A stretch of 64,000 bases of DNA from the NCBI RefSeq assembly GCF_900155385.1, contig NZ_LT699745.1, forward strand, positions 1,068,946 through 1,132,945, in the 5' to 3' direction. Numbering within the stretch: position 1 is the stretch's first letter; each line of letters begins with the position of its first letter. The notes beneath the pieces are model-generated. The model searched no databases and was not told the origin of the DNA. It saw only the letters and a list, made by a program, of their open reading frames with translations. Of this stretch, positions 45,149-62,621 are shown one piece after another. This stretch comes from Vreelandella massiliensis (lineage in GTDB: Bacteria > Pseudomonadota > Gammaproteobacteria > Pseudomonadales > Halomonadaceae). Made by a program: the position numbers and the translations under genes.

Positions 45149-45183
45149 ACGAGGCGAGTTACCTGTAGGAAGTGGTGTTGCCC

Positions 45184-46983
45184 ATGGCGCTTCATTTTAC
45201 GTTACCGGCTTTTGTCCGCAGAAACCCACTGTCGGTAATTGGTATCAGCGTACTTTTTTGTGCGTCGCTTGCGTTGGGTAGCATCGCCCTTTTTAAGCAT
45301 CAGTCCGTAGATAAACGGCTTTTTGAGGATGCTGTTTGGGCTACCTATCAACTCGACCGTGAAGTGCGCGATGTACGTATTGCGTTGCTAGAAGCGTCTC
45401 CCGAAGCGCTTGAATCACTGAAAATGGCCTATGACATTCTCTACAGTCGCCTGAGAGTGGTTGAGCGCGGTCAAGTCGCGCAACTAATACACCGCGTTCA
45501 AGTGCGTGAGTACGATGTTGATCAAGTGTTGGCAGACATTCGCGCACTGGATGAGCCGCTTATGTCACTTGATGCAGCATCGCTACCGGAGCAGCGCCCC
45601 AGCTTGAACAGCAAGCTAAAAGAGATCCAGCACGCGACCGGGCAGATTGCCACTGAGGTAAACCACTTCTTCTCGCGGCAGCGTCAAGCGGATAGAGAAA
45701 GCCTGGATACGTTGATCCGGGCGACGCTATTTTTGGTCACTCTCACCATGTTGGCAGGTGTGTTGCTGTTACTTCAGCTCAGGCGTCAGCGTAAGGCGCT
45801 AGAACACCGGCAGGAGAAGCTAAGAGACACAAACGAAAAGTTGGACGCTGCTCGACGTGAAGCAGAAAGTGCAAGCCAGGCGAAATCTGACTTTATGGCG
45901 GTTATGAGTCATGAAATTCGCACACCCCTTAACGGCATCGTAGGGATTACGGATTTACTAGAAAATGAAGTGATATCCAGTGTTACGGGTCGTGAGTACT
46001 TAAGTGCTCTGCGCGATAGCACTCATGCCCTGTCAACCGTGATTAACGATATTCTCGATTACTCGCGCATTGCAGCAGGCAAACTTTCGCTTGCTCCTCA
46101 GCCATTTGACCTGGGGTTGTTACTTGATTCGCTATGCCGTAATTATTCTCTGCGCGCCAAGGGAACCGCCATTGCGTTTGCCTGTCATCGCCCCCCATTA
46201 GGCGTTGTGTTTGCCGACCCGAACCGCTTGCGCCAAGTGCTGATGAATTTGCTCAATAATGCATTCAAATTTACCGATAGTGGAAGCATAACGCTTGAAG
46301 TCACGCAAAACCACGCGGATGAAACGTCAATCAGCCTGCTCTTTAGCGTTGAAGATACTGGCTGCGGCATGAGTCAATCGCAACAGAAAAAATTATTTCA
46401 GCCATTTTCACAAGTGGATACATCGCTGTCGCGTCAACGAGAAGGTACTGGTCTGGGCCTTGTGATTTGTCAGCAATTGATCGAGGCAATGGGGGGAACT
46501 ATCCAGCTAGAAAGTACGCTTGATTGCGGCAGTCGTTTCTATTTTTCCCTTTCGCTACTACGCTCCCAACTGCCTGAAGGTGAGCAAGATTTACCGGAAG
46601 TGTCAGTGGTGAGTGCCCGCGTGTTAGTAGTGGAAGATAACGCCATTAACCAAATGCTGATACGCAAGCAGCTTAGTAAGCTCGGGCACCAAGTCGATAT
46701 TGTTGAAAATGGCCAGCAAGCGTTAGACAAAGTGGATCAGTCATCTTTTGATGTGATCTTAATGGATATGCAAATGCCCGTCATGGATGGCTTGGCGGCT
46801 ACTAAAGCGTTGCGTAGACGAGGGGATTCCACTCCTATCCTCGCCTTAACGGCTAATGCAATGCCAGAGGATCGCCAACGCTGTCTAGATGCCGGTATGC
46901 AAGAGGTGATTACAAAGCCTGTGCATGCTTCCACATTGGAGCGCCAGCTTAATCATTATGTTGTCTTGGGAGCCAATGGATGA
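45184..46983 (+). CDS. Membrane hybrid histidine kinase (HK-REC)
   Basis: 599 residues from ATG 45184 (AGGAAG upstream; an in-frame GTG at 45172 overlaps that site). Membrane helices at about 15-35 and 178-198 enclose a periplasmic helical domain related to that of the diguanylate cyclase at 4092. A coiled linker leads to HisKA (His243 in [12 protein letters not shown]), HATPase (LNNAFKFTD, DTGCGM, GTGLGLVI) and a C-terminal receiver (about 480-598, VILMDMQMPVMDG). The stop overlaps the start of the next kinase (ATGA). Confidence 0.92.
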   Translation: MALHFTLPAFVRRNPLSVIGISVLFCASLALGSIALFKHQSVDKRLFEDAVWATYQLDREVRDVRIALLEASPEALESLKMAYDILYSRLRVVERGQVAQLIHRVQVREYDVDQVLADIRALDEPLMSLDAASLPEQRPSLNSKLKEIQHATGQIATEVNHFFSRQRQADRESLDTLIRATLFLVTLTMLAGVLLLLQLRRQRKALEHRQEKLRDTNEKLDAARREAESASQAKSDFMAVMSHEIRTPLNGIVGITDLLENEVISSVTGREYLSALRDSTHALSTVINDILDYSRIAAGKLSLAPQPFDLGLLLDSLCRNYSLRAKGTAIAFACHRPPLGVVFADPNRLRQVLMNLLNNAFKFTDSGSITLEVTQNHADETSISLLFSVEDTGCGMSQSQQKKLFQPFSQVDTSLSRQREGTGLGLVICQQLIEAMGGTIQLESTLDCGSRFYFSLSLLRSQLPEGEQDLPEVSVVSARVLVVEDNAINQMLIRKQLSKLGHQVDIVENGQQALDKVDQSSFDVILMDMQMPVMDGLAATKALRRRGDSTPILALTANAMPEDRQRCLDAGMQEVITKPVHASTLERQLNHYVVLGANG

Positions 46984-49076
46984 GCTGTAAAAATTCCATG
47001 AAAGCTGAGCACTTCATGGAGGCAGTGCCGCATGCGTTGGTGGGTCTGACGCGACAAGGAGAGTGCTGTTTTATTAATGCTAAGGCGCGTTCGCTTTTAG
47101 GTGAAGCCGCATCGCCGCAATGCCTCTCAGGTTTGTTAGAAGTGCTCCCTGGTGCATTATCTTCGGCATTAGGCTCGTTGTGGCAAACTTATTTGATGGA
47201 CCTCACATCCGAGCAGTCGAGCAATTGTTCCATAGTGGCGGCAGTACAAGGCAAGCATTATCAGCTGCACCTGATACCGGTCGACGATAATGCCCTCGTT
47301 GGCGGTGTGCTTTTAACCATCGAAGACATTACTCAAGAAGTTCATAAAGAGATACAGCTAGATGTGTTTCGCCAGGGAGTAGGGAACTATCGTGAGTTAC
47401 ACCAAAATGATGCGCGCTGGGACTTTATGTTGGAGGCGTTAAAACGCCTAACCAATAGCCAGTATGCGCTTATCGGCGAGACGGTGACCCAAAAAAACAG
47501 CGCGCTATACAGCTTGCGCGTCCACGCGGTTTCTGATTTGTCTTGGAATGAATCCTCACGCCAGCTGATGCAACGTTTGCGTTCCGGTGAAATGACATTG
47601 TCGAATCCAGATAGCATTCTTGGACGGGTGTTTGCGTATGGCGAAACGGTTTTGACTGATGACCTTGCGGGACATCCTCATAAAACGGGATTTCCACCGG
47701 GACATCCCGAGATATTTAATTTTCTCGGGGTGCCTATCTATGATGGGGAGCGTCTAGTGGGAATGTTTGGCGTCGCTAATGCGCCACAGGGTTATCATAT
47801 AGGAATGGCACGCGAACTTGCCCCTTTTACCACGACGTGCGCGCTATTGATCAACCTTTACCGCGATAGCAAAACTCGTGAAAAAGTGCTGAAACGTTAT
47901 GCCGTTGCTAAGGATAAGGCGCAAGCGGCTAATCGCGCCAAAAATGATTTTCTTTCCTCTATGAGCCATGAGTTGCGTACGCCATTAAACGCGATTTTAG
48001 GCTATGTTCAGCTGTTGAATGATGTTTCTGATTTACCATTGGAAACCCAATTATATATTAAACATATCGATGATAGCGGTAACCATCTTTTAGCGTTAAT
48101 CGGTGATCTGCTCGACTTTGCCAATATTGAAGCGGAGTTGTTACCCGCGGATCTCAAGCCTGTGGCTTTGCAGCCCATACTGGATAGGTTGTGTCATCAG
48201 GTTCAAGGCTTGGCGTCCAAACACGCTATTACGTTAAAGCCCTGGGATAGTCGGGGGTATTATGTAATGGCCGATGCTGAGCGTGTTCAGAGAGTGCTCT
48301 TTCAGTTGGTAAGCAATGCCATTAAGTATCAGCCTCAGGGGGGGAGCGTCGACATCATTATTGAAAAAGTGGCGCAACAAGTTGCTATTCATGTGATGGA
48401 TGAAGGTATTGGCATAGATCCCGCCTACCATGCGGACGTATTTACGCCGTTTAATCGGCTGGAGGCGAGCAAGGGTACAATAGAGGGTACAGGAGTAGGG
48501 CTGAGCCTAGCGCTGAAACTGGCGAAAAGCCTCGGTGGCACCGTGACACTTAAGAGTGAACCCAGTCAAAGCAGTACAAGACATCATGCTGGAAAGCACG
48601 TTGGCGCCGATTTCACGCTTTGGCTGCAATACGCAAAAAGGCCTATTAAAAGTCACGCAGACCATTCTGGTACACAAGAAATACCGCTTAAAAAAGAAGC
48701 TGAGTACAACGGTGCTAGAGTGCTTTATATCGAAGATAACAGGATCAACCAGCGTTTAATGGAGCGCGCCTTTTCTAAATGGCATTTGCTCTCATTGGAT
48801 ATTGCCGAAAGCGCCGAACAAGGGCTCGAGAAGCTTAGTCAGTCTTCCTACGATTTGGTGTTAATGGACATTAGCCTCCCCGGTATGGACGGCTATGCCG
48901 CACTGAAGAAAATACGTGCTACTCCAACGTTAGCCTCTTTGCCTGTTATTGCCGTGACGGCACACGCTAGCGATACGGAGATACACCGTGGCAGAGAAGC
49001 TGGGTTCGACGACTATGTAACAAAGCCGGTGAAACTGAATCTGCTCAAGCAGATGATACATACCTATTTAAATTAG
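46980..49076 (+). CDS. GAF hybrid histidine kinase (PAS?-GAF-HK-REC)
   Basis: 698 residues, start ATG 46980 overlapping the preceding stop by four bases. N-terminal PAS-like region (about 10-115), GAF domain (about 140-290, with LGVPIYDGERLVGMFGVAN), HisKA (His near 330 in SSMSHELRTPLNA), HATPase (VSNAIKYQPQ, DEGIGIDP, GTGVGLSLALK) and a receiver (about 580-695: LYIEDNRINQ, LVLMDISLPGMDG, YVTKPV). No membrane helices. Cotranslated with the membrane kinase, so the two may phosphorylate a shared Hpt. Confidence 0.91.
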   Translation: MSCKNSMKAEHFMEAVPHALVGLTRQGECCFINAKARSLLGEAASPQCLSGLLEVLPGALSSALGSLWQTYLMDLTSEQSSNCSIVAAVQGKHYQLHLIPVDDNALVGGVLLTIEDITQEVHKEIQLDVFRQGVGNYRELHQNDARWDFMLEALKRLTNSQYALIGETVTQKNSALYSLRVHAVSDLSWNESSRQLMQRLRSGEMTLSNPDSILGRVFAYGETVLTDDLAGHPHKTGFPPGHPEIFNFLGVPIYDGERLVGMFGVANAPQGYHIGMARELAPFTTTCALLINLYRDSKTREKVLKRYAVAKDKAQAANRAKNDFLSSMSHELRTPLNAILGYVQLLNDVSDLPLETQLYIKHIDDSGNHLLALIGDLLDFANIEAELLPADLKPVALQPILDRLCHQVQGLASKHAITLKPWDSRGYYVMADAERVQRVLFQLVSNAIKYQPQGGSVDIIIEKVAQQVAIHVMDEGIGIDPAYHADVFTPFNRLEASKGTIEGTGVGLSLALKLAKSLGGTVTLKSEPSQSSTRHHAGKHVGADFTLWLQYAKRPIKSHADHSGTQEIPLKKEAEYNGARVLYIEDNRINQRLMERAFSKWHLLSLDIAESAEQGLEKLSQSSYDLVLMDISLPGMDGYAALKKIRATPTLASLPVIAVTAHASDTEIHRGREAGFDDYVTKPVKLNLLKQMIHTYLN

Positions 49077-49134
49077 TCGAATTGGAGTTGGCTGTACGCT
49101 TTGTGTGGCTAACCGTGTGTAATAAGAGGTAAGT

Positions 49135-50391
49135 GTGCCCGAAAAAATGGCTTTATCCACTAGTTACGGCATTGCGTTGCAACCGATTTGCAATGCTCAG
49201 TTTGTGCATGTTGCTGATGAACTCCTATATCGCGCGCGTTCTGGGGCTGACTCTGTTCAAATTGATGACCCTCTTTTAGCCACAGCGCGGGCATGCACTA
49301 CCGCTTTTTATGAAGTGGGGCTTAGGTCGCTGGTAGGGGAGCGGCGGCTTTTTTTTAATGCCACCGCTGAGTGGGTAAAAAACCCCAATATTATGCCGTT
49401 GCCTAATGCTCAGCTGGTCGCTGAAGTGCCAGCAACGCTTTTAGCCGAGCCAGATATTCGCCAACAGCTCGCCGAGCTGCGCGAGCAGGGGTATCGAATC
49501 TGTGTGGACGATGCCACGCTAGATGCACATGCCGACGACATACTTGAAATGGCCGATTTTTTAAAGGTGGATGTCCGGCGTCGCGACGCGTGGTCTTGGC
49601 CTATGCGGTATCAGCATCAGGCGCTAACCCTCATTGCCACCTTTGTTGAAAATCGCGACCAGTTAGCGCATGCGAAAGAGTCTGGGTACGCGTTATTTCA
49701 AGGGTTTGTCTTTGCACCACCCAACCATATTCAGTCGCCAAATAAACACCGTTCAAGTAATTCGGCAGTAGAGATGCAACTGCTTGCCGAGTTAGCCCTT
49801 AATGACCTGTCTCCCGAGCGACTGGAAAGTTTGCTAGTCCAGCACCCTCATTTGTGCCAGCTCATATTTAAACAACTTAACTCAGCCGCTCACGCCAACC
49901 TGGTACGCACGGTTAGTAGTTTACGCGAGGCCGTTCAACTGCTTGGCACGCGCCGGTTAACAGCCCTTGCAGCAGCGCTTTCGCTATCGCGCAACGATCC
50001 AGTACAAGCAGTTCAGTTACGTGCGGTAGTGATCAGGGCGGCGCTGTGTCGCAACATCGCAAGCCATCTCAAAGATGTGAATGAAAGTACGGCCTTCACG
50101 TTGGGGTTGCTTTCCTTGATTGGCCAGATTGAGGGTGAGCCCATGGAGTCGCTGCTCGCCTCGGTGCCCCTTGAAGATGGTGTAAAAAAGGCACTGCTTC
50201 ATCGAGAAGGCGGTTTAGGGCGATTACTTAACCTAGTGGAGCGGTTTGAGAACGGGGTGCTTACCCAGGTCAGTGCAGGTGTGCTCGGTTTTCTCAATGA
50301 TGATTATTTAAAAGCCGTCGCCTGGGCGGATGCGTTAATCAATGCGGCACCTACCACGAATAAACCCCATGGCAACAATGCCAATAGATAG
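49135..50391 (+). CDS. Degenerate EAL plus HDOD protein
   Basis: 418 residues, start GTG 49135. The first about 205 residues are a YuxH-like EAL fold that keeps DELLYRAR but lacks the catalytic EAL, Asp-Asp and metal ligands (VDDATLDAH in place of DDFG), so it is probably not a phosphodiesterase. Residues about 215-400 are an HDOD domain (LLVQHPHLCQLIFKQLNSAA, LGTRRLTALAAALSLS). Such EAL-HDOD proteins are regulatory scaffolds in motility and biofilm control. Stands between the kinases and the chemosensory genes. Confidence 0.88.
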   Translation: MPEKMALSTSYGIALQPICNAQFVHVADELLYRARSGADSVQIDDPLLATARACTTAFYEVGLRSLVGERRLFFNATAEWVKNPNIMPLPNAQLVAEVPATLLAEPDIRQQLAELREQGYRICVDDATLDAHADDILEMADFLKVDVRRRDAWSWPMRYQHQALTLIATFVENRDQLAHAKESGYALFQGFVFAPPNHIQSPNKHRSSNSAVEMQLLAELALNDLSPERLESLLVQHPHLCQLIFKQLNSAAHANLVRTVSSLREAVQLLGTRRLTALAAALSLSRNDPVQAVQLRAVVIRAALCRNIASHLKDVNESTAFTLGLLSLIGQIEGEPMESLLASVPLEDGVKKALLHREGGLGRLLNLVERFENGVLTQVSAGVLGFLNDDYLKAVAWADALINAAPTTNKPHGNNANR

Positions 50392-50563: not shown

Positions 50564-52471
50564 ATGGCATTAAAAAAGAGCACTTCTCGTACTTCTTATA
50601 CACAGCCTGCCAGCGAAGAGGGCGCATCACGCTCAGTGGAGCAGCAGCGTCGTCGTGCGCGCACGTTGGCAAAACAGCAGCAAGCATCCGAGCGTGTGGC
50701 CAGTGCGGCGCAACAGCTCGCTGCAGGTATCACTGAGTCGGGGCGTGCGCGTGATCAGCTCAACGATGCTGTGCAGGAAATTGCTTCAGGTGCCGAGGAG
50801 GCTTCATCGGCAAGTCAGGAGAGTTTGTTTGCTGTTAAAAGCATTGCTGAGCAGGTGAATGCACAAGCCGCAGCGGCTACCGAAGTGCGGAAACTTGCTG
50901 AGCAAGCCAACGATCGCGCCGATGGCGCTAGTGACAAAATTCGTGCCCTTGTTGAGAGTCTGCGTGCAACGGCTACCCGCCAGGATAACTCCCTGAAGTT
51001 AATGCAGCGCTTAGAAGAGCAGGCAGGAGAGATCAACGAAGCGGCACGGCAAGTGATGCGTATTGCTGACCAGACCAATTTGCTGGCCTTGAATGCCGCT
51101 ATCGAAGCGGGACGTGCCGGGCGTCACGGCAAGGGGTTTGCAGTGGTGGCGGACACAGTGCGCACGCTGGCGGAAGGCGCAGAACGCAGCGCCACTGAAA
51201 TAACTGAGCTGGTCGACAGTATTCGCCACAAGAGCGATGAGGCAGGTGGTGCTGTTAAACGCTCCGCTGAGGCAGCGCTTGAGCAGATCAAAAACGGTGA
51301 AGCCATTGAGCAGGGCTTCGACGCCATCCTCAATGAGGTGCGTAACGTAACGCGCGGTGCACGTGATGTCAGTAACAGCGTCGATGAGATTAAAAAAGCC
51401 GTAGACGATTTGCAGCAAGGGTCGGAAAACGTCGCTTCGGCGGCTGACCAGCAAGCCGCTGCCGCAGAAGAGGTCGTCAACTCACTTGGCGAGCAGGGGA
51501 GAGCCTTGCGTGGTGCTGAAGATGCGGCCAATGAGCTTGAAGAGGTCTCCGACGAACTTCGTAGTAGTACGGATATTGCCAAAAGTGCCGAAAGCGTGGC
51601 CTCTTCTGCCGAAGAACTCGCAGCGTCAGTTGAAGAGCTTAACCGCGGCGCACGCGAAGTAGATACCGCATTAAAAGAAATTTTGAGCGGCGCCGAACAG
51701 GGGGCATCAGCCGCAGAGCAAGGGTTGGCCGCTATCAGTCAAGTCGAAACCGCGGTGCATCAGAGTGATAAACGCGCAACGCAAGCCACCACTAGCATCA
51801 AAGAGATTGGCGAGAAGCTCAATGAGAACCATGCCAATGTCCATACCATGGTGGCCACGATTCGCGAGGATCTCCATGCCTCGCGAAATAACCTGAAAAA
51901 TGTGCGTGATGTGCAGCGGTTAAATCGTCAGATCGACAAAATTGCCAACGCCATTGCCAATATCGCTATTAAGACGGGCATGTTGGCCGTAAATGGCGCT
52001 GTCGAAGCCGCACGGGCTGGTGAGTATGGCAAGGGCTTTGCCGTTGTATCGGGTGACATTCAGAATCTTGCCGATGATGCCTCCACTAACGTTGAGCAAG
52101 TGCAAGATCTCGTTCGGCGTATTCAGGATCAGGCGGACGCCGTTGCCGGCGATTTGGACACTTCGTTGGTTACAGTAGAAGCGGATGTCGCGCGTACTGA
52201 GCAGGTGCTGACGGATATCGATGAATTGACAAAGCTGCGTAATCAGCTCAACGACGGTGCCGAGCGCGTGCAGGAGTCTGCCGGCGAAATCAGCGTAGCC
52301 GTGACGCAAAGCAAGAAAGGGATGGAGCAGATTGCGACCGCTGCCGAGCAGTCCGCTTCGAGTGTTCGGGAGGCTTCAACTGCTGCCGATCAGCAGGCGC
52401 AAGGGATAGAAGAGCTTGCTGCTGCCGTAGAAGAGATCGCCTCGATCGCCGATGAAATGCAAAGTAGCTGA
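50564..52471 (+). CDS. Soluble chemoreceptor with duplicated signalling domain
   Basis: 635 residues with no signal, membrane helix or ligand domain. Two complete methyl-accepting signalling modules lie in tandem. Tip 1 is near 169-205 ([20 protein letters not shown]), and tip 2 near 469-505 ([20 protein letters not shown]). The offset is exactly 300 residues without gaps and also holds in the flanking helices ([12 protein letters not shown] at 45 against [12 protein letters not shown] at 345). Tip 1 has lost the Glu of the usual AGEQG, while tip 2 keeps it but is less standard elsewhere. It must be cytoplasmic and could join two arrays or hold two CheA/CheW sites. First gene of the chemosensory block; its stop overlaps an in-frame upstream ATG of the CheW gene. 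Confidence 0.9.
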
Positions 52472-52494
52472 TGCATAACGAGCCAGGAGGCGAT

Positions 52495-54063
52495 ATGAAC
52501 GCAACGCTTCAAACGGATACCGACAGTGATGATGGCGGGTTGCTGCAAGTAGTGAGTTTTGCCCTCGGTCAGGAAACGTTTGCTCTGCCGATGACCCAAG
52601 TACTGGAAATCATGCGCTATCCAGAGCCGGTAAAAGTGCCCATGACGCCGCCCTCTCTGCTTGGTTTGGCGGGGCTGCGCGGCAGTGTGTCACCTATCGT
52701 GGATTTGCGAGCTCTAATAGGAATAGGTCAGAGCACGATTAATGATGCGAGCCGCGTACTGTTACTGGATATGGGACAAAGCGTGGGTATGGTGGTTGAC
52801 CATGTCGACCGTGTCATGACCCTGGACAGTGCATGCATTGAACCAGCAGTCGAGATCAGTAGCGTTGATACCGAACTGCTCAGAGGTGTTTATCGGCTAG
52901 AGGATAACCAGCAGCGCCTGCTTCAGCTCCTCGACCTTAATGCTTTGATGGCACGCGAATTTGCCGGCGACTCCGAAGATGGCAGTGCTGGGATGCTGGC
53001 TAGCATTGGTACGGCCGCTAATCAGTCCGTCGTGGAAGATCAAGAAAATGACGAACTAACGCAACTGGTGAGTCTTGAAGTAGATCATCAGGAGTACGCG
53101 TTTCGTCTTGGCGACGTGCAAGAAATTTTGCGCTATCCCGATCGCATTAGTCGCACGCCTAAGGCTCCGGCACACGTGATTGGGTTGATGACCCGGCGAG
53201 GAAAAACCTTTCCACTTTTCTCCATGCGTGCTTGGTTGGCGTTGCCTCCTTCGCCGGCGGATAGCGAACAAGTGGTCGTCGTATTACGCCGTGGTCAAGT
53301 GCGTTTAGCGTTAGCGGTAGATCAGGTCAAAGAAGTCGTGCGGCTCGACGAAAAACATCTTGAGCCGGTACCCGATGTACTGGCTCGAGACCCCAGCATG
53401 CAGGATGTGGCGGCTATTTGCCGTTTAGACGAGGGACGCCGTCTGCTCAGTTTGTTGGCTACTGATCCTCTTTTTGTCACCGCTAATACGTTAGCGCTTG
53501 TCGACCCCCAGGCTGAGAAAAGCCCGCAAGAGCAAGATGCTGCCATGACCGATGCAACCAATGAAGAGCAAAATGACGAATGCCAGCTAGTGGTCTTCAC
53601 GCTTGATGAGCAGCAATACGGCATTTCTATCGAGCAGGTGCAAGAGATCACCCGGCTGCCTGAGCGCTTTTATCATGTTCCCAAAAGTCCTGATTTCATC
53701 GAAGGCATGATGAATTTGCGCGGCACGGTGTTGCCGGTGGTGGATATGCGAACCCGCTTCGGTGTGGCCGGTATTGAGCACAATGAACGGCAACGTATCT
53801 TGGTGCTTAACCTAGCCGGTATCACAACCGGATTTGTCGTGGATACCGTCAGTGAGGTACGTCGTCTGCAACGTCACACGATTGAACCGGCGCCGCGCTT
53901 GTCGGCTGCGCAGCAAAAATTGCTCGGCGAAGTGGTTCGCACACCTGACAACCAGCTGATTCAGCTGCTTGATGTTAATGCGCTGATGAGCCACGACGAG
54001 CAGCAAGCGCTAGTCGAAAGCGCAGATGTAAATGAAAGCACGTTGTCAACGGCAAATCAGTGA
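52495..54063 (+). CDS. Triple-CheW coupling protein
   Basis: 522 residues from ATG 52495, which has AGGAGG six bases upstream; an in-frame ATG at 52471 overlaps the receptor stop. Three CheW domains in a row at about 16-160 (VVSFALGQETFALPM ... GLAGLRGSVSPIVDLR), 180-325 (VSLEVDHQEYAFRLG ... GLMTRRGKTFPLFSM) and 350-500 (VVFTLDEQQYGISIE ... GMMNLRGTVLPVVDMR). The middle domain has the least typical motif. A single-chain CheW trimer would couple receptors to CheA with fixed stoichiometry, which may suit the double-tip receptor upstream. Confidence 0.92.
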   Translation: MNATLQTDTDSDDGGLLQVVSFALGQETFALPMTQVLEIMRYPEPVKVPMTPPSLLGLAGLRGSVSPIVDLRALIGIGQSTINDASRVLLLDMGQSVGMVVDHVDRVMTLDSACIEPAVEISSVDTELLRGVYRLEDNQQRLLQLLDLNALMAREFAGDSEDGSAGMLASIGTAANQSVVEDQENDELTQLVSLEVDHQEYAFRLGDVQEILRYPDRISRTPKAPAHVIGLMTRRGKTFPLFSMRAWLALPPSPADSEQVVVVLRRGQVRLALAVDQVKEVVRLDEKHLEPVPDVLARDPSMQDVAAICRLDEGRRLLSLLATDPLFVTANTLALVDPQAEKSPQEQDAAMTDATNEEQNDECQLVVFTLDEQQYGISIEQVQEITRLPERFYHVPKSPDFIEGMMNLRGTVLPVVDMRTRFGVAGIEHNERQRILVLNLAGITTGFVVDTVSEVRRLQRHTIEPAPRLSAAQQKLLGEVVRTPDNQLIQLLDVNALMSHDEQQALVESADVNESTLSTANQ

Positions 54064-54081: not shown

Positions 54082-55146
54082 ATGTCATTAAAGGTTTTGA
54101 TTGTCGATGACTCGGCACTGATGCGCCGTCAGCTTAAGCAGATGCTGGAAAGAGCAGGCGACATCGTGAGCGAAGTTGCGCGTGATGGGCAGGATGCCCT
54201 TGTGCGTTTGGAAGCTTTCGATCCAGACGTCATCACACTCGACATCAATATGCCGGTAATGGATGGCCTGGCTTGCTTAAGCCATATTATGGCCGAGTCT
54301 CCACGTCCGGTCATTATGGTTTCTTCGCTCACTGAAAAAGGCGCTTTGGCGACCTTTGAGGCGTTGGAGCTTGGCGCGTTCGATTATGTCAATAAACCTG
54401 GCGGCACCGTCTCGCTTAATTTGCGTGATGTCGAGCAGGAGTTGCAGCAAAAAGTGCGTGCTGCGGCTAATCAGCGTCAGTCAATGGCGACCAAGGTACA
54501 AAAGCGCCGTTTACACGACGCCAAGGTAACACGCCAGCCGCGTCAGTCGCTAAGAAGCCGAGTTGGAAGCCGCTATAAATTGGTTGTGGTGGGCGTCTCA
54601 ACCGGCGGCCCAAGCACGTTAGAAAGTATTCTGCGTGAGTTGCCGGCGGGCTTTCCCGTGCCGATTGTGGTCGCGCAGCACATGCCCGCCCACTTCACAA
54701 AACCTTTTGCTGAACGGCTTGACCGTCAGTGTGCGCTAAAAGTGACAGAAGTGCGTGGACCGGCACTGCTGGAACCTGGCCACGTTTATATTGCACGTGG
54801 CGACGCTGATGCCCGGATCGTAAAGCGCGCCGGCAATATACGCATGATCAGTATTCCTGCCTCAGATACCCACCTTTGGCACCCGAGTATTAGCCGATTG
54901 GTGACGTCAGCCCGTGAAGTCTATCAAGACCGCGAACTTATCTGTGTGCAACTCACTGGCATGGGGGATGACGGTGCCGCTGAGATGGCCAGTGCACACC
55001 AGCACGGTGCATTAACCATTGCCGAAAGCGAAGCGAGTGCCGTGGTCTTTGGTATGCCGCGAGCACTTATCGAACAGCAAGGAGCAGGCATGGTGCTTGA
55101 AAGCGAAAAAATTGCCGCGCAGCTGGTGGAGTGGGCAAGCCGCTAG
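54082..55146 (+). CDS. cheB: Chemotaxis methylesterase CheB
   Basis: 354 residues. Receiver (about 1-120) with Asp54 in ITLDINMPVMDG and NKPGG at the end; methylesterase domain (about 165-354) with Ser173 in GVSTGGPST, His200 in VAQHMPAHFT and Asp296 in TGMGDDGAAEM, the full triad. It removes receptor methyl groups when phosphorylated. AGGA precedes ATG 54082. The receptors it acts on are probably those at 50564 and 61389. Confidence 0.95.
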   Translation: MSLKVLIVDDSALMRRQLKQMLERAGDIVSEVARDGQDALVRLEAFDPDVITLDINMPVMDGLACLSHIMAESPRPVIMVSSLTEKGALATFEALELGAFDYVNKPGGTVSLNLRDVEQELQQKVRAAANQRQSMATKVQKRRLHDAKVTRQPRQSLRSRVGSRYKLVVVGVSTGGPSTLESILRELPAGFPVPIVVAQHMPAHFTKPFAERLDRQCALKVTEVRGPALLEPGHVYIARGDADARIVKRAGNIRMISIPASDTHLWHPSISRLVTSAREVYQDRELICVQLTGMGDDGAAEMASAHQHGALTIAESEASAVVFGMPRALIEQQGAGMVLESEKIAAQLVEWASR

Positions 55147-55234: not shown

Positions 55235-55909
55235 ATGGCACTTAAACGTCCTGATACCGATCATGCCTTGCCGGCACAAGAAAGGCGCCAGCAGGAGCGC
55301 GACAGTGCCACTCTTTTGGCAGAACTAAAGATAGAGCAGGCGCCCATTCGGCGCTGGGCAGCACGCGATCTAGGGCGCCATCCCGAAGCTGCAGAGGCTT
55401 TGCTGGTAGCGTTGAATGACGAGCCTGATGCAAGCGTACGTGAAGCGCTGTTCTGCAGCCTAGAGGAAATTGCTCATCACGATCCGAGCAGTGAAGTAAG
55501 CATGATGATCACGCGTGGACTGCTTACGTTTTTGCGCTCTGACAGTGCGTTATTGCGCAATGAGGCAATCGATGTGTTGCAGACGCTACCTGAGTCGGTA
55601 GCGCCACATTTAGATGCCTTATTAAACGACGAGGATGCGGATGTGCGTATCTTGGCGCTAGATATTCTTCGCGCGCTGCCTCATCCCAATTCGCCAGTGT
55701 GGGTGACTCAGGTCTTGGCCCGTGAAACGCACCCTAACGTGCTCGGGGCGGCGGTAGACCGAGCTACTGAACTGGGTACTAGCGACATGTTGCCAGCGCT
55801 CAAGGTGCTGCAAGCACAGCCAGATTTACCCAGCTATCTGCGTTTTGCGATCAAGATCGCGCTAGAGCGCATTGAGGACGATGAGCCACAAGGAAGCCAA
55901 GCATGGTAG
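55235..55909 (+). CDS. HEAT-repeat protein in the chemosensory operon
   Basis: 224 residues, soluble and all helical, with several HEAT-like repeats (IRRWAARDLGRHPEAAEALL, VREALFCSLEEIA, LRNEAIDVLQTLP, VRILALDILRALP). GGAGG precedes ATG 55235. Lying between cheB and cheR and overlapping cheR by seven bases, it probably binds one of them or the receptors, for instance to tune adaptation. No catalytic motif. Confidence 0.85.
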   Translation: MALKRPDTDHALPAQERRQQERDSATLLAELKIEQAPIRRWAARDLGRHPEAAEALLVALNDEPDASVREALFCSLEEIAHHDPSSEVSMMITRGLLTFLRSDSALLRNEAIDVLQTLPESVAPHLDALLNDEDADVRILALDILRALPHPNSPVWVTQVLARETHPNVLGAAVDRATELGTSDMLPALKVLQAQPDLPSYLRFAIKIALERIEDDEPQGSQAW

Positions 55910-56817
55910 GTGCTGAAAGCCAAGTCGGAGAGACGTTGATTACAAGTGCTGAGTTTGCCCGCTTTCGCGACTACTTCTATCGTCGCACGGGGCTCTACTT
56001 TGAGGACAGCAAGCGCTATTTCGTCGATAAACGCTTACTAGAACGCATGCGTGTCACCGGCCACGACAGCTTTCGTAGCTACTTTACCTTCGTTCGCTTT
56101 GAGGCCAAGGGAGAGGAGTTTCAGCACCTCGTCAACGCCATGACGGTGAACGAAACCTACTTTATGCGCGAGAAGTATCAATTCGACTGCTTGGTTAGCG
56201 AGGTGCTTAACGAGCGGCTTGCCGCACGGCGCTCAGGGGAAACGCTAAAGATTTGGTCAATCCCCTCAAGCACCGGTGAAGAGCCTTATTCTATTGCCCT
56301 TATGTTGCTTGAACACTGGCCGGCTATTGCCGATGTCGATGTCGAGATTGTGGCATCTGATATTGATACGCGTGTGCTGACCAAAGCCCAGGCAGGTATT
56401 TATAACCAACGCTCGCTCATGCATGTGAGCGAGCGTGTGCGCAGGCGTTATTTTACATCTTTGGAAGGGCAGCGTTGGCAGCTTAACGCCGACATTCGCG
56501 ATGCCATTGCCTTTAGTCAGGTTAATCTCTCGGACTTGGAACAGACCCGCAGCTATCGCGATTTTGATGTGATTTTTTGCCGTAATTTGTTGATTTACTT
56601 TAATGATGCGGCCCGTCGGCGTGCTGCTGAAGTGTTCTTCGATGCCTTAGCGCCGGGCGGCTTCATCTTTTTGGGGCATTCGGAGTCAATGAGCCGTATC
56701 TCATCGCTGTTTACCGTGCGCAAGTTTACGCAGGCGCTGGCCTATCAAAAGCCCGACAACAGCCATTCCCTGACCCCGCAGGGTGTTTCGACATCTCAAG
56801 GTCTGTTTAAACGTTAA
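55903..56817 (+). CDS. cheR: Chemotaxis methyltransferase CheR
   Basis: 304 residues. N-terminal helical domain (about 15-85) followed by the SAM-binding domain: NETYFMRE, IPSSTGEEPYSIAL in the SAM loop, and FDVIFCRNLLIYFN. It methylates receptor glutamates, opposing CheB. No C-terminal TPR or pentapeptide-binding extension beyond the standard length. The start overlaps the HEAT gene. Confidence 0.95.
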   Translation: MVGAESQVGETLITSAEFARFRDYFYRRTGLYFEDSKRYFVDKRLLERMRVTGHDSFRSYFTFVRFEAKGEEFQHLVNAMTVNETYFMREKYQFDCLVSEVLNERLAARRSGETLKIWSIPSSTGEEPYSIALMLLEHWPAIADVDVEIVASDIDTRVLTKAQAGIYNQRSLMHVSERVRRRYFTSLEGQRWQLNADIRDAIAFSQVNLSDLEQTRSYRDFDVIFCRNLLIYFNDAARRRAAEVFFDALAPGGFIFLGHSESMSRISSLFTVRKFTQALAYQKPDNSHSLTPQGVSTSQGLFKR

Positions 56818-56827
56818 GGAGAGCCGG

Positions 56828-57226
56828 GTGAAAACCGTATTGATTGTTGATGACGCCGTCACGGTACGCCTGTATCACCGTGAGTTAATGGAGGCGCTGG
56901 GGCATCGCGTGATAGAAGCCGAAAATGGCGTGGAAGGATTGGAGCGTATGGCGGATGCGGCGGTCGACCTCATGCTAGTGGATATCAACATGCCCAAAAT
57001 GGATGGTTACCGCTTTGTGCAAGCGGTGCGCAGTGATGCTCGTCTCGGTAGCGTGCCGATTATCATGATCAGCACCGAAGCGCAGTACCACGACCGTGCG
57101 CGAGCCTTTAGCGCGGGAGCTAATCTGTATGTCATCAAACCCACCGAGCCCGAATATCTACAGCAGTTGGTAACACTTTTGTTAGGTACGCCCGACGCTG
57201 TGGTGAGCGTAGGAGACCATGCATGA
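56828..57226 (+). CDS. Stand-alone response regulator (CheY-like)
   Basis: 132 residues from GTG 56828 after AAGGAGA; an in-frame frame start at 56783 lies inside cheR. Single receiver with LIVDDAVTVR, Asp in LMLVDINMPKMDG, Ser/Thr in MISTEA and Lys in VIKPT. It ends four bases into the cheA start. A likely phosphate sink or output of CheA. Confidence 0.9.
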   Translation: MKTVLIVDDAVTVRLYHRELMEALGHRVIEAENGVEGLERMADAAVDLMLVDINMPKMDGYRFVQAVRSDARLGSVPIIMISTEAQYHDRARAFSAGANLYVIKPTEPEYLQQLVTLLLGTPDAVVSVGDHA

Positions 57227-59961
57227 ACCCGCTGCTCCAATCATTTATCAACGAGGCGCGCGATAATCTCGAAGTCGCTAGCCGCTGCTTGCTGGCGCTG
57301 GAACAGTCGCCCAACGAGGATGCTCTGCTCGACGAGCTATTTCGCGCCATGCATACCATCAAAGGGGCGTCTGGGCTGTTCGATAACCTGACAGAATTTA
57401 GCCGTCTATTGCATGTGATTGAGGATGGCCTGGATCAAGTGCGCAGTCATACATTGCCGCTTACGCCCGAGCTCACCGATGTCATCTTTGATGCGCTTGA
57501 TGTGATCACCCAGTGGCTCGATAGCGTGGAAGCCACCGAATCCCTTCCGGAAAGTGCCCCCGCGCAGCTTAACGAGCAACTTGCGGCGTTAAACCAAGCC
57601 ATGCAGCAGACAACGGTGACAGCGGTTGAAGAGGCAATGCCCAGCGACGTGGTGTCTAACGACATGTCGATAGACGCCAATACCTCCGTCACCGAGGCAC
57701 CAGAATGGGTGCAAGCCCTACCCGATAACACACGTCGCTCGCTGGTTAAGGCAAGTCTTGAGGCCCCAGATGCTACCTTGATGGCTGTGGTGTTCACGCC
57801 ACCCGAGGAGTGTTTTTTCCAGGGCCACGATCCGCTACAAAATGTTAAAACACTGCCAGGTCTGCAGGTGATGCAAATTGCTCCCCGCCAGCAGTGGCCC
57901 ATGCTGGAAATACTTGACCCCTACCAGTGCGTGCTCAATTTCTCACTGGTGGCACTCGCGCAAGAAGATGAAGTTCATCACCACTTTCGTTACCTAACCG
58001 AGTCGGTGAGCGTGGAACCCTTAGCGGTTGAAGCATTGATTCGGCCCTCAGGGGAGTGGGAAGAGGATGCGCTCATCGCACCGTTTATCGATGAGGCGCT
58101 ACCGCTTGCCGAAGCAGGTGATTGGGCGTCGCTGCGAAAGCGATTGACACCGCTAGAGCAGCTCAGTGGTGAAACCCTTTATGCGCATAGTGTGGTGCAC
58201 TGGTTAGCGTTGGCGCTACGTTTCGATTCACCTCCCCAAACAGTTATTTTAGGATTAATCGATGCGTTACGAGAAGGCCACTATCAACCTCGTGCGCCCC
58301 TGCTTGCATCGGCTGACGCGCTATCGACTAACTCTCTACAGCCAGTGGAGGCCCCTCTTCCAAACGTGGCGAAGCCCGAGAATGGGCAAGGGCTGATTCA
58401 TGAGGTATTAGCGCAGCAAATAGAAGTACTGGACGCGCCCATCAGTGCCGAGCTTTTTGCGCCTCGTTTTGATGCGGTGGCCCATGTGGTGCGCCAGTTA
58501 GTGGCCCAGCTTGGCGATGCCAACGAAGGATTAGAAGAAGCGATTACGCGGTCGCGTGAACAACAAAATGGTGCGCTTTTACAGCAGTGGCTGACTGCAT
58601 ATCTCGCAAGGCAGGCGCCCGAAGCTGCTCCCTCTCCCACGCCGGCTTCGCTTGCGCCATCTGACGTGACCGATATAGCAACACCGGCGGAACATGCCAA
58701 GCGAGTGGAAAAAAACGACAAAGCGCCGGCAAGCGGCCAAACCATCCGTGTGGAACAGCAACGTATCGATGAACTGATGACGCTGGCAGGCGAACTCGTC
58801 GTGGCTAAAAATGCGTTGCCATTTTTAGCCAAAAGCGCCAACGAAGGCATGTCCAGTGCAAACATTGCCAAAGAGCTCACTAGCCACTACGCCAACATCG
58901 ATCGCATTGCTGATCGTATGCAGCAGGCGGTGATGGGGGCTCGCATGGTGCCACTTTCGGTGGTATTCCAGCGCTTTCCACGCCTTGTGCGAGACATGAC
59001 CCGCAAGCTTGATAAGCAAGCTGAATTGGTGCTAGAGGGTGAAGAAACGGAGGCTGACAAGCACGTAGTGGATCATCTCGCTGATCCGTTAGTGCATTTA
59101 GTGCGCAATAGCCTAGATCATGCCCTGGAAGGACCAGCCGAGCGACAGGCGGCCGGCAAGCCGGCAAATGGAATGATTAAACTGCGTGCGCAGGCGCTTG
59201 ATGATCAAGTGCTGATTGAAGTCATTGATGACGGTCGTGGTATTGATGCGGAAAAGCTCAAACAAAAAGCGTATCAGCGCGGCTTAATCGATGAGCAGAA
59301 GCTTGACACCATCACGCACCAAGAGGCACTTCAGCTAATTTTTGCCGCAGGTCTTTCCACCGCCGAGAAGGTCTCGGATATCTCTGGACGCGGCGTAGGG
59401 ATGGATGCTGTACGCACTGCGGTTGCTGCCTCTGGCGGGCAAATTAGCGTGGCGAGCGAAGCGGGAAAAGGAACTACGATTCGCATCTTACTGCCGCTAT
59501 CGATGGCCGTGGCGCGGGTGATGATGGTGCGTATCGGTGAGCAGGATTACGGTATCGCCATGGCCAATATTCGTGAAACGGTACGTGTGCCGGTGTCATC
59601 GATTCACCGTATCAAGCGCAGTGAAAACATTGTGTTGCGCGATAAGCTGATTCCACTTAAGCGGATGAGTACCTTGCTGAATCTAGCCCCCTCTCCTCCC
59701 CGCGACGAGGAGGCCATACTCATCGTCGAGGTTGAGGGGCAGTTGGTCGGGTTGGTGATTGATGATTTCCGTCAAGGCATTGATATTGTGCAAAAACCCA
59801 TGGAAGGCATCATGGCCAATTACGGTATTTACGCCGGAAGTGCGCTCATGGGCGATGGACGCGTGCTGCTCGTTCTCAATCTATCAGCGCTATTAGAGAG
59901 TGCTGCCCAGACAGAGGCTAACCAAGCCCAAAAAACGCTAGGAGAGAGCCATGCCGATTGA
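57223..59961 (+). CDS. cheA: Chemotaxis histidine kinase CheA, with long middle region
   Basis: 912 residues. Hpt domain with His44 in RAMHTIKGASG; a long middle part (about 110-500) containing an alternative P2-like domain (ATLMAVVFTPPEECFFQGHD near 184) and further helices; dimerisation from about 507 (EQQRIDELMTLAGELVV); HATPase with HLVRNSLDHAL near 625, DDGRGID and GRGVGMDAV near 723; CheW-like domain from about 762. It autophosphorylates at His44 and passes phosphate to the receivers and CheB. The non-standard middle region, about 400 residues, is longer than in flagellar CheA and marks an alternative chemosensory class. Confidence 0.94.
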   Translation: MNPLLQSFINEARDNLEVASRCLLALEQSPNEDALLDELFRAMHTIKGASGLFDNLTEFSRLLHVIEDGLDQVRSHTLPLTPELTDVIFDALDVITQWLDSVEATESLPESAPAQLNEQLAALNQAMQQTTVTAVEEAMPSDVVSNDMSIDANTSVTEAPEWVQALPDNTRRSLVKASLEAPDATLMAVVFTPPEECFFQGHDPLQNVKTLPGLQVMQIAPRQQWPMLEILDPYQCVLNFSLVALAQEDEVHHHFRYLTESVSVEPLAVEALIRPSGEWEEDALIAPFIDEALPLAEAGDWASLRKRLTPLEQLSGETLYAHSVVHWLALALRFDSPPQTVILGLIDALREGHYQPRAPLLASADALSTNSLQPVEAPLPNVAKPENGQGLIHEVLAQQIEVLDAPISAELFAPRFDAVAHVVRQLVAQLGDANEGLEEAITRSREQQNGALLQQWLTAYLARQAPEAAPSPTPASLAPSDVTDIATPAEHAKRVEKNDKAPASGQTIRVEQQRIDELMTLAGELVVAKNALPFLAKSANEGMSSANIAKELTSHYANIDRIADRMQQAVMGARMVPLSVVFQRFPRLVRDMTRKLDKQAELVLEGEETEADKHVVDHLADPLVHLVRNSLDHALEGPAERQAAGKPANGMIKLRAQALDDQVLIEVIDDGRGIDAEKLKQKAYQRGLIDEQKLDTITHQEALQLIFAAGLSTAEKVSDISGRGVGMDAVRTAVAASGGQISVASEAGKGTTIRILLPLSMAVARVMMVRIGEQDYGIAMANIRETVRVPVSSIHRIKRSENIVLRDKLIPLKRMSTLLNLAPSPPRDEEAILIVEVEGQLVGLVIDDFRQGIDIVQKPMEGIMANYGIYAGSALMGDGRVLLVLNLSALLESAAQTEANQAQKTLGESHAD

Positions 59962-60232
59962 GTTTAAGCGCCGCAGCGCCATTTTTACAGGCGCTTGCGA
60001 GGTCGAAGAGGCTGAAACCCTGCACAGCTGGTTACTAGAACAGCCTAAAGCGAGCCTCAATTTGCGCCATTGTGAACACCTGCACACGGCTATGTTACAA
60101 GTTATCCTCGCAGCCAAGTTGCACGCATCGGTTAAGATTGACCCTCCCCCCAATGATCCTTGGCTTGCGCAAGTATTGCGCCAAGCTAGTGCTTCGCAGC
60201 TTGACGCAAAAATGGGAGAAGCGTGGGCGTGA
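59951..60232 (+). CDS. Small STAS-like protein
   Basis: 93 residues overlapping the end of cheA by 11 bases. The alternation (AIFTGACEVEEAETLHSWLL, LNLRHCEHLHTAMLQVILAA) fits a small STAS fold, but the site usually holding the phosphorylatable Ser is Cys-Glu-His here. Could be a docking partner of CheA or of the ParA-like protein that overlaps it downstream. The family call is by fold pattern only. Confidence 0.6.
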   Translation: MPIEFKRRSAIFTGACEVEEAETLHSWLLEQPKASLNLRHCEHLHTAMLQVILAAKLHASVKIDPPPNDPWLAQVLRQASASQLDAKMGEAWA

Positions 60233-60987
60233 TTCTTACTCTGGCCAATCGTAAGGGCGGTACCGGTAAGACCACCACCGTCGTCAACCTAGCGGCGCTT
60301 TGGGGCAGCCAAGGTCAGCGCGTGCTGGTTATCGACCTCGATAGCCAAGGTCATGCGGCGATTGGCTTGGGGCTTACGTATGAACCCGCTGCCAATGCGA
60401 CCATCCACCACTTGTTGCGGCATCCCGATACGCCGGTTAACGCGTTATGGCAGGCGACTGCTTGCGAAGGTGTGAGTTTGATACCGGCAGATACTCGCTT
60501 CAGCGGTCACGGTGAGCAGTGGCCATTGACGGGGCTTCAACGGGCGCTTGCCAAAGGCGATATCCTTCACTATTTCGACGTTGTGATCATTGATACGCCA
60601 CCCACTCAAGATGGTTTGTTAATCAGCGCCATGTGTGCTGCCAGCGCCGTTCTGGTGCCGTTTGTCCCACATCATCTTGGGGAGGTGGGGGCAAAGCAGC
60701 TCGCGCGACTTTTCTACCGTGTTGCCACCGAGCAAAACCCCTCGCTTGGCATGCTAGGGCTGCTGCCGGTGATGTTTGATGCACGCTTGCAACTGCACCG
60801 CCAGACGGTTGACCGCTTAGCGCGTCAGTTTGGCCAGGCGCGGATGCTGGCGGGCGTGCGAAACAACATTAAGCTGGCTGAGGCTTTTGCTCACGGACTT
60901 CCTATCCATTGCTACGCGCCTAGAAGTGCGGGCGCTCAAGATTACCGCGCGCTGATCCAGTCGCTCGGTGCCAAAAATTCTCACTAA
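60223..60987 (+). CDS. ParA-family ATPase (ParC-like array positioner)
   Basis: 254 residues, start GTG 60223 (GGGAG upstream; a GTG at 60229 is also possible). Deviant Walker A RKGGTGKTT, switch Asp in VLVIDLDSQGH and Walker B VVIIDTPP. In many gammaproteobacteria a ParA homologue next to cheA/cheW (ParC) places chemosensory arrays at poles or midcell, and the context here supports that. It overlaps the STAS-like gene by 10 bases. Confidence 0.85.
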   Translation: MGVILTLANRKGGTGKTTTVVNLAALWGSQGQRVLVIDLDSQGHAAIGLGLTYEPAANATIHHLLRHPDTPVNALWQATACEGVSLIPADTRFSGHGEQWPLTGLQRALAKGDILHYFDVVIIDTPPTQDGLLISAMCAASAVLVPFVPHHLGEVGAKQLARLFYRVATEQNPSLGMLGLLPVMFDARLQLHRQTVDRLARQFGQARMLAGVRNNIKLAEAFAHGLPIHCYAPRSAGAQDYRALIQSLGAKNSH

Positions 60988-61008: not shown

Positions 61009-61386
61009 ATGGCGAAACGCATTTTTTTGGTTGATGACTCAAGCACTATCTTGATGAGTTTGAGCAATATTTTAAAGCAAGCGGGCTACGCGGTGGGAAC
61101 CGCCCCTGATGGCGAAGCAGCGCTAGAAAAGCTAAAGGGACTAAGCCAAAAGCCGGATCTGATTATTACCGATATCAATATGCCCAAAATGAACGGCTTG
61201 GAGCTGATTCAGGCAGCTAAAGCGTTACCGGGCTATCGTTTTGTCCCGATTTTGGTGCTGACCACCGAGTCACAGCAGGCGCGGCGAGAAGAAGCGAAAA
61301 AAGCGGGTGCGACAGGCTGGTTAGTCAAGCCGGTGCAAGGTACTGAACTTATCAATGTGGTCAAGCAAGTGGTGCCAGGAGCGTAG
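61009..61386 (+). CDS. CheY-like response regulator
   Basis: 125 residues. Full receiver: FLVDDSSTI, Asp in LIITDINMPKMNG, Thr in LVLTTES and Lys in GWLVKPV, ending in a helix. Stands between parA and the second receptor. The closest of the three stand-alone receivers to canonical CheY in form. Confidence 0.92.
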   Translation: MAKRIFLVDDSSTILMSLSNILKQAGYAVGTAPDGEAALEKLKGLSQKPDLIITDINMPKMNGLELIQAAKALPGYRFVPILVLTTESQQARREEAKKAGATGWLVKPVQGTELINVVKQVVPGA

Positions 61387-61388
61387 CC

Positions 61389-62621
61389 ATGAAAGGCTCG
61401 ATTATTCAGCGCTGTAGTGTCTATGGGCAGCGTCTTTTGATACCCACTGCGCTAGTGGTGTTGTCACTGGTGGCATCTTCGTCTGGATGGCTTGCACAGC
61501 ACACAGGCTTAGCCACGCTAGGGTGGGGCGTTTTGTGGGCTGCACTGGCGGTGGCTGCCTGGGCGCTTGTTGAGCGTCAGCGCCAAATGAAGCTTCAAGC
61601 GAGTGGTAGCCAGTACCGGGTGCCGGCTGATGGTGCATCAGGTGAAACGGCGAGTGTTATCCATGGGGTTCAAGCAATGGCTGAACACGATCAGCTCGCA
61701 ATGAACCGTCTTGAAGAAACTATTGACTTTACTGAAGATGCGGCCAATACCCTGATTAATAGCCTTGTGGGGGTTAACGGGCTAGCCGATGAGTTAATGG
61801 AATATTTAAAGGAAGCTGGCGAACAAAGCGAGCAGATGCAGCGTTCCTTTGAAGATAGCAGCCATGTGATCCAGGAGTTAGCGCAGTTTATCCACACGCT
61901 ACCTGAGCATATCGAAGAGCAGCGCCAAGATTTCCGCATGTTAGGAGAACGCATAGGAGAGCTGAATAAACGGGTGGAGGCGATCCAAGAAATCAGCCAG
62001 CGCACGACGCTGCTGTCATTGAATGCTGCGATTGAAGCTGCCCATGCGGGGGAGGCCGGGCGTGGTTTTGCCGTGGTGGCGAAAGAAGTTCGCGCGCTTG
62101 CCGCGAGTTCATCGGAAGCGGCGATGACAATTACCCAGAGTATTCATGGCGTACAAGCCTCGGTCGATAGCTATTTCGGACCCGAGATGGAGGCACGGAT
62201 CCAAAACGATATTAGTGAAGTGAAGCGGCTAATAAAACAAACCCAGGAGTTAGATGATGGTTATACCGATATGCGGCTTTTCTACCGCATGCTACTGAGC
62301 GCTATAACTCATCACCATCAGGGCCTAGCTAAGGAAGTCAACGATGCGCTGGGAAATATCCAGTTTCAGGATGTTACGCGTCAGATAACCGAACGGATTC
62401 GCGAAAGTATCTTAAGTCGCAATGACGCCTTAAATGATATTTCTCAAGCGCTTGAAACTCAGGCGTCGCCACCGTGGCATTTGCTGACTGAGCTCAGCGC
62501 TGAATATGCCGAGAAAGATGCTTATCACCATTCCCATGCGTCACTGAACGTTAATGAAGGTGCATCCAGTTTTTACAGTGATCATGAACAAAATCGCGGT
62601 GCCAAGATAGAGCTATTTTGA
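61389..62621 (+). CDS. Chemoreceptor with C-terminal CheZ-like motif
   Basis: 410 residues. Two close membrane helices (about 15-60) with hardly any periplasmic loop; a short signalling domain with tip RTTLLSLNAAIEAAHAGEAG near 205-225 and GFAVVAKEVRALA; and a C-terminal helical region with NIQFQDVTRQITERI. There Asp328-x3-Gln332 matches the catalytic Asp/Gln spacing of CheZ (QDLTGQ). No separate cheZ is seen in the window, so this receptor may carry its own CheY-P phosphatase. It starts two bases after the cheY stop. Confidence 0.82.
   Translation: MKGSIIQRCSVYGQRLLIPTALVVLSLVASSSGWLAQHTGLATLGWGVLWAALAVAAWALVERQRQMKLQASGSQYRVPADGASGETASVIHGVQAMAEHDQLAMNRLEETIDFTEDAANTLINSLVGVNGLADELMEYLKEAGEQSEQMQRSFEDSSHVIQELAQFIHTLPEHIEEQRQDFRMLGERIGELNKRVEAIQEISQRTTLLSLNAAIEAAHAGEAGRGFAVVAKEVRALAASSSEAAMTITQSIHGVQASVDSYFGPEMEARIQNDISEVKRLIKQTQELDDGYTDMRLFYRMLLSAITHHHQGLAKEVNDALGNIQFQDVTRQITERIRESILSRNDALNDISQALETQASPPWHLLTELSAEYAEKDAYHHSHASLNVNEGASSFYSDHEQNRGAKIELF

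Follow-up and report, generated by a model that had tools for sequence, protein, structure and literature searches.

Single-hairpin methyl-accepting chemotaxis proteins (MCPs), such as Tsr, Tar and Thermotoga 2ch7, have one signalling hairpin per chain, unlike the receptor described here. This receptor is the product of dosM, a gene in a window of 64,000 nucleotides from Vreelandella massiliensis (positions 1,068,946 to 1,132,945 of the forward strand of contig NZ_LT699745.1, assembly GCF_900155385.1). In the available sections of a published survey, tandem signalling domains and a triple CheW protein are unique to the F9 class of chemosensory systems, full F9 clusters are present in 64 of 2781 species, and 98% of DosM homologues comprise two signalling domains only (PMC9321776). 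In V. cholerae, DosM (VC1403) belongs to the F9 (cluster I) system and is described in the passages at hand as an elongated rod that is tipped at both ends; it adjoins the CheW3 protein VC1402 in a system that includes the CheA VC1397 and the receptor VC1394 (PMC7534058). The V. cholerae F9 baseplates are placed 35 nm apart in the relevant parts of two accounts (PMC3964821, PMC7184735). Cytoplasmic sandwich arrays of Rhodobacter sphaeroides similarly hold two baseplates about 30 nm apart around soluble receptors; the extracts available describe two opposed receptor layers and leave double-ended receptors unmentioned (PMC3964821).

The gene dosM is a member of the DosM family and a new instance of this described but rare architecture, V. 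cholerae DosM being likened to it by its published description. The assignment is made because the protein has two MCP domains, no sensor domain and no membrane helix, and because a gene for a triple CheW protein (CheW3) is adjacent; genes for CheA, CheB, CheR and CheY are also present. V. cholerae DosM and the surveyed homologues share, in the published portions available, the tandem domains, the solubility, the lack of a sensor, the adjacent CheW3 and a CheA in the cluster (PMC7534058, PMC9321776). The window's cheA is the fifth gene after cheW3, and the V. cholerae gene numbers VC1402 and VC1397 are likewise five apart (PMC7534058). The initial annotation, made from sequence, had set the two-hairpin chain apart from ordinary receptors with one hairpin per chain. 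The architecture is not unprecedented, since the DosM class, with its triple CheW, had already been published, and the stacking of two arrays, one of the roles proposed in that annotation, is the published role of V. cholerae DosM in the part of the account available (PMC7534058, PMC9321776).

The gapless tandem duplication of 300 residues that had been proposed is borne out by a self-comparison of the protein over all diagonals at offsets 20 to 499. The diagonal at offset 300 is continuous and ranks highest, with an ungapped BLOSUM62 score of 397 for residues 19-335 against their partners, and the runner-up scores 144. Residues 36-335 are repeated as residues 336-635, so that the end of the chain is the exact end of the second unit. 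The two copies share 88 identities over 335 positions (26%), which are densest at the tips. Each half, searched separately, matches the Pfam MCPsignal domain (PF00015), with E-values of 1.2e-32 for the N half and 2.7e-29 for the C half and bit scores of 113.6 and 102.7 against a curated cut-off of 34.6. The two signalling tips do lie 300 residues apart: the 20-residue tip motifs begin at residues 171 and 471, and GKGFAVV is found at 189 and 489.

The predicted absence of a sensor domain and a membrane helix also stands. Besides MCPsignal, no Pfam family scores above its cut-off in the DosM protein and no sensor domain was found; against NCBIfam, none of the matches listed reaches its cut-off. 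A 19-residue hydrophobicity mean of ~1.6 is the customary threshold for a membrane helix. The peak in the DosM protein is 1.11, and no stretch resembles a membrane helix. A search of the same genome, in which more distant receptors may have been missed, returned 22 places similar to the DosM protein, and each of the other 21 has a stretch whose hydrophobicity exceeds 1.6 (1.75 and 1.81 being the lowest values), leaving the DosM protein as the only one without.

Relatives were collected in searches that started from the window protein or from its relatives, with E <= 1e-60 or shared peptides as the entry condition, a procedure by which more distant DosM proteins with other spacing may have been missed. 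Matches were obtained in 3 out of 58 relatives; within the class 9 of 369 genomes matched, within the phylum 9 of 398, and within two other classes 3 of 289 and 1 of 78. Every one of these counts includes its centre genome, which matched. In all, the genome_contigs set contributed 23 loci (20 full-length), and seven plasmid records were found. The 45 distinct full-length proteins are the window protein, L009-L038 (30), L042-L045 and L047-L049 (7), L050-L054 (5), L099 and L100. The set leaves out L046 (the same place as L014), the fragments L039 and L040, the single-hairpin L041, and plasmid hits H5 and H7, whose species were already represented. Counts given over 44 rows include the duplicate L046 and exclude L099 and L100. 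Family members are mutually related and hence not independent, and the family-wide counts are descriptive.

The tip-to-tip spacing is 300 residues in all 45 proteins, by both alignment and motif, at identities down to 31%. The first 31 sequences align over 606 positions without any gap. In L049 the gap placement is shifted in hairpin 1, and L048 has about ten extra residues near its C-terminus; the spacing is 300 in both. In contrast to the window protein, L048, a divergent DosM (34% identity), has a hydrophobic stretch with a 19-residue mean of 2.22.

The two tips differ from each other in a constant manner. Asp-169, Leu-176 and Ala-178 of tip 1 face Ile, Val or Leu-469, Val-476 and Gly-478 of tip 2 in 45/45 proteins, and Met-473 is present in all 44 rows. 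The divergence of the tips that had been noted in the window protein is family-wide: position 187 carries Lys, Arg or Gln in 39 of the 45 proteins and an acidic residue (Asp or Glu) in the other six, whereas 487 is always Glu or Asp. The position matching Arg-187 is Glu in 32 of 33 single-hairpin receptors and Gln in one. Over three 15-residue blocks, mean entropy is 0.32 bits for tip 1 and 0.65 bits for tip 2, as against 2.0-2.4 bits for stalk blocks, and the four 15-residue blocks of lowest entropy all fall within the tips. The joint region, the N-terminal motif and the C-terminus are also conserved, and the mid-stalks are variable; 13 of the 15 positions of the N-terminal motif (residues 29-43) are invariant among the 21 sequences of alignment A1. 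The divergence may reflect split roles for the tips, as the initial annotation suggested; both are conserved, the second to a lesser degree.

Methylation-type motifs are present in both hairpins, in keeping with the neighbouring cheR and cheB genes. In the window protein the first Glu/Gln of these motifs is at residues 50, 78, 296, 350, 385 and 595; across the 44 rows of the family it is at 78 (39 rows), 85 (31), 295 (21), 350 (40), 385 (16) and 610 (33).

A single old duplication best explains the origin of the two hairpins. A tree was built from 24 thinned DosM proteins, split into halves, and 33 single-hairpin domains, with no independent root. Each of three groups, the N halves, the C halves and the single-hairpin domains, is set apart by a branch (support 85/96, 100/100 and 100/98, respectively); the single-hairpin sample is narrow and L049 has long branches. 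The duplication is considered old because the halves form separate clades and share 26% identity, and a recent duplication is ruled out on the same grounds. When a profile of the C half was used for searching, the top match apart from that half itself was the protein's own N half in all three DosM genomes among 143 (3.0e-51, 2.0e-40 and 9.5e-40), and the best other receptor, with at most 16 candidates scored per genome, reaches 1.4e-34.

The junction between the repeats is marked by both sequence periodicity and predicted structure. The C-terminus of the protein is the same point in repeat 2 as the junction is in repeat 1. In 45/45 proteins the hydrophobic heptad seam undergoes a phase jump at the junction, of -112 degrees (range -128 to -85), and inside every helix the phase is kept to within 39 degrees (180 comparisons). 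The jump amounts to about one residue, because 300 is one less than 301, or 43 x 7. AlphaFold2 models the window protein (predicted local distance difference test (pLDDT) 90.4, predicted template-modelling score (pTM) 0.64) as almost entirely helical, interrupted for three residues at 335-337, and an Armatimonadetes relative (pLDDT 89.2, pTM 0.62) as almost entirely helical with a break at the equivalent residues 345-347. Because the seam jump is found in all 45 proteins and the helix is broken in the models, the two hairpins are probably jointed rather than one uninterrupted coiled-coil helix.

The best structural matches of both monomer models are compact bundles that cover the tip-near parts of both hairpins. 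Helical bundles score high in structure comparison through their arrangement alone, and the top rows, mostly unrelated helical bundles, were used solely for the residue span covered. From these match spans, taken without coordinates, both models may be read as a folded-back monomer, which is possibly an artefact of single-chain prediction; the alignments behind the two runs are largely the same.

The reading favoured here, with a probability of roughly 70%, is that DosM is a double-ended scaffold receptor of an F9-class cytoplasmic system that bridges two CheA/CheW3 baseplates. Two chains would pair into a long rod, with a joint between its two MCP hairpins and a CheA/CheW-binding tip at either end. 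By analogy with the V. cholerae literature, from which the rod spanning two baseplates is taken, one tip would enter each of two parallel baseplates, setting their distance and holding a two-layered array together. The constancy of the 300-residue spacing fits a length that is set by two rigid layers. Both hairpins would undergo methylation by CheR and CheB, whose genes are close by. Signal input would come from other receptors, because DosM has no sensor, and the 410-residue MCP encoded downstream is the obvious candidate; output would pass through CheA and the CheY-type regulators. If all rods had the same orientation, the array would present two chemically different faces.

Several observations weigh against this bridging arrangement. 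In both AlphaFold2 models the central helix is interrupted at the junction, the match spans of the models point to a folded-back bundle and not a rod, and the seam shifts at the same point throughout the family. With a helix rise of 0.148 nm per residue, a straight helix of 300 residues is ~44 nm long. The baseplate distance reported for V. cholerae F9 is 35 nm in the sections available (PMC3964821, PMC7184735). This mismatch could be explained if V. cholerae DosM were shorter, if the rods were tilted or bent, or if the chains were folded back. The published account, as far as it is available, also needs a second cytoplasmic receptor, and every one of the 21 other receptor matches in the genome has a hydrophobic stretch above the threshold. 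The first of these observations lend some support to the pseudo-dimer that was among the options of the initial annotation: a single chain folded back at 335-337 into an up-down-up-down four-helix bundle of ~22 nm with both tips at one end. One chain would then replace the receptor homodimer, the unlike tips would act as a built-in heterodimer in one baseplate, and two-layered arrays would arise by base-to-base contact between opposed bundles. It is doubtful, though worth serious attention, that such folding, with the tips side by side, is made possible by the break and the one-residue seam shift, which coincide exactly with the repeat boundary (300 residues, not 301). The jump and break fit a jointed rod equally, the same conserved parts then meeting mid-rod, and single-chain AlphaFold2, run here on largely shared alignments, can fold a tandem duplicate back on itself and so mimic a homodimer. 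Moreover, V. cholerae tomography describes an extended rod with one tip per end in the passages at hand (PMC7534058). A salt bridge between 187 and 487 was considered as support for the folded-back chain and is ruled out, as the two positions do not covary; 487 remains acidic in 45/45 proteins, including the six in which 187 is acidic. The single-chain pseudo-dimer is therefore ranked below the bridge and considered unlikely.

It is very improbable that CheA/CheW binding is confined to tip 1, with tip 2 having drifted towards some other role, structural or not. Tip 2 is atypical in its family-constant Met-473, Val-476 and Gly-478, it is hydrophobic at 469 where tip 1 has Asp, and its entropy is higher than that of tip 1; it is nevertheless far more conserved than the stalks, and it keeps Glu-481, Arg-484, Gly-489, Gly-491, Phe-492 and Val-495 in 44/44 rows, unlike a drifting segment. 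The idea that the gene is an assembly artefact or arose by a recent or accidental fusion found no support and is refuted by the 45 distinct full-length relatives in many organisms with identical spacing and by the separate clades of N and C halves.

The features of the locus are collected in the table below. A scan for promoters and terminators between 50300 and 52700 returned no site of either kind. Upstream of dosM on the same strand, positions 45172-50391 hold two hybrid histidine kinases and an EAL-HDOD protein, and an EAL-HDOD gene also precedes dosM in L009, a relative with 82% identity. The dosM-cheW3 system is probably an extra chemosensory system of this genome, because there are CheW domains at two loci elsewhere, both of which have one frame the size of CheW and one the size of CheA.

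Table. Features of the dosM locus (positions within the window)
Feature	Position	Strand	Details
dosM, soluble receptor with two MCP signalling hairpins	50564..52471	+	635 residues, start ATG
N-terminal motif	50648..50692	+	residues 29-43; at the junction end of hairpin 1
Repeat unit 1 / hairpin 1	50669..51568	+	about residues 36-335; self-alignment, AlphaFold2 model
Tip 1	51059..51184	+	residues 166-207; Arg-187 where single-hairpin receptors carry Glu
Junction, end of repeat 1	51566..51574	+	residues 335-337; predicted helix break and heptad phase jump
Repeat unit 2 / hairpin 2	51569..52468	+	residues 336-635; self-alignment, AlphaFold2 model
Tip 2	51959..52084	+	residues 466-507; Met-473, Val-476, Gly-478 family-constant
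cheW3	52471..54063	+	530 residues; three CheW domains (PF01584) in one chain
cheB	54082..55146	+	receiver and methylesterase
HEAT-repeat protein	55235..55909	+	conserved cluster member
cheR	55903..56817	+	methyltransferase
CheY-type response regulator	56783..57226	+	listed from GTG, start unsure; 56822-57223 scanned
cheA	57223..59961	+	Hpt, dimerisation, ATPase and CheW-like domains
93-residue protein	59951..60232	+	overlaps the ends of cheA and the ParA gene; no Pfam match
ParA/MinD-type ATPase	60223..60987	+	between the 93-residue gene and the second cheY
Second CheY-type response regulator	61009..61386	+	
Single-hairpin MCP	61389..62621	+	410 residues; N-terminal hydrophobic stretches; possible partner receptor

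A CheW3 match adjoins dosM in 36 of the 37 distinct search-derived loci, the exception being L048, which comprises only 3354 bases. An annotated CheW adjoins it in all five plasmid records retrieved; these name the dosM product just 'methyl-accepting chemotaxis protein'. Matches to cheW3, cheB, the HEAT-repeat gene, cheR, cheY and cheA all follow dosM in 14 of the 20 genome_contigs loci, and in the remaining six the sequence ends before cheA. Ten of the 14 have the window's gene order; in L028, L029, L032 and L033, cheY, cheR or cheA is ordered otherwise, which may stem from the use of stop-to-stop frames. A frame similar to the 93-residue protein, which may be STAS-like, was matched in 10 of 14 relatives' clusters extending to cheA. 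The ParA/MinD-type ATPase has no match in any relative's dosM cluster listed, and perhaps lies outside the shared system; ParA/MinD-type proteins are responsible for the placement of cytoplasmic arrays in R. sphaeroides.

In L027 (7396-9564) and L013 (2-883 of the reverse complement), dosM has a single-hairpin MCP gene as its immediate neighbour on the same strand, and the products are candidate partner receptors. One Aquabacterium metagenome-assembled genome has two different dosM-cheW3 pairs (L020 and L030). Two same-genus DosM proteins, L009 and L010, share 82% and 41% identity with the window protein, and the 34 other same-genus genomes searched have no DosM match at E 1e-60; this disparity and patchiness suggest that DosM was acquired separately within the genus.

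The fixed 300-residue spacing, the constant tip differences and the seam break were measured in the window's family and were not met in those portions of the published DosM descriptions that were searched (PMC7534058, PMC9321776). These three features (ruler, tip polarity and joint) are offered as useful additions to these descriptions, with no claim that they are unpublished. Together, the fixed spacing and the constant tip difference amount to a molecular ruler with built-in polarity. The phase jump bears directly on the validity of the accepted rod model as drawn, and, if the pseudo-dimer were true, an obligate receptor homodimer would have been turned into one asymmetric molecule.
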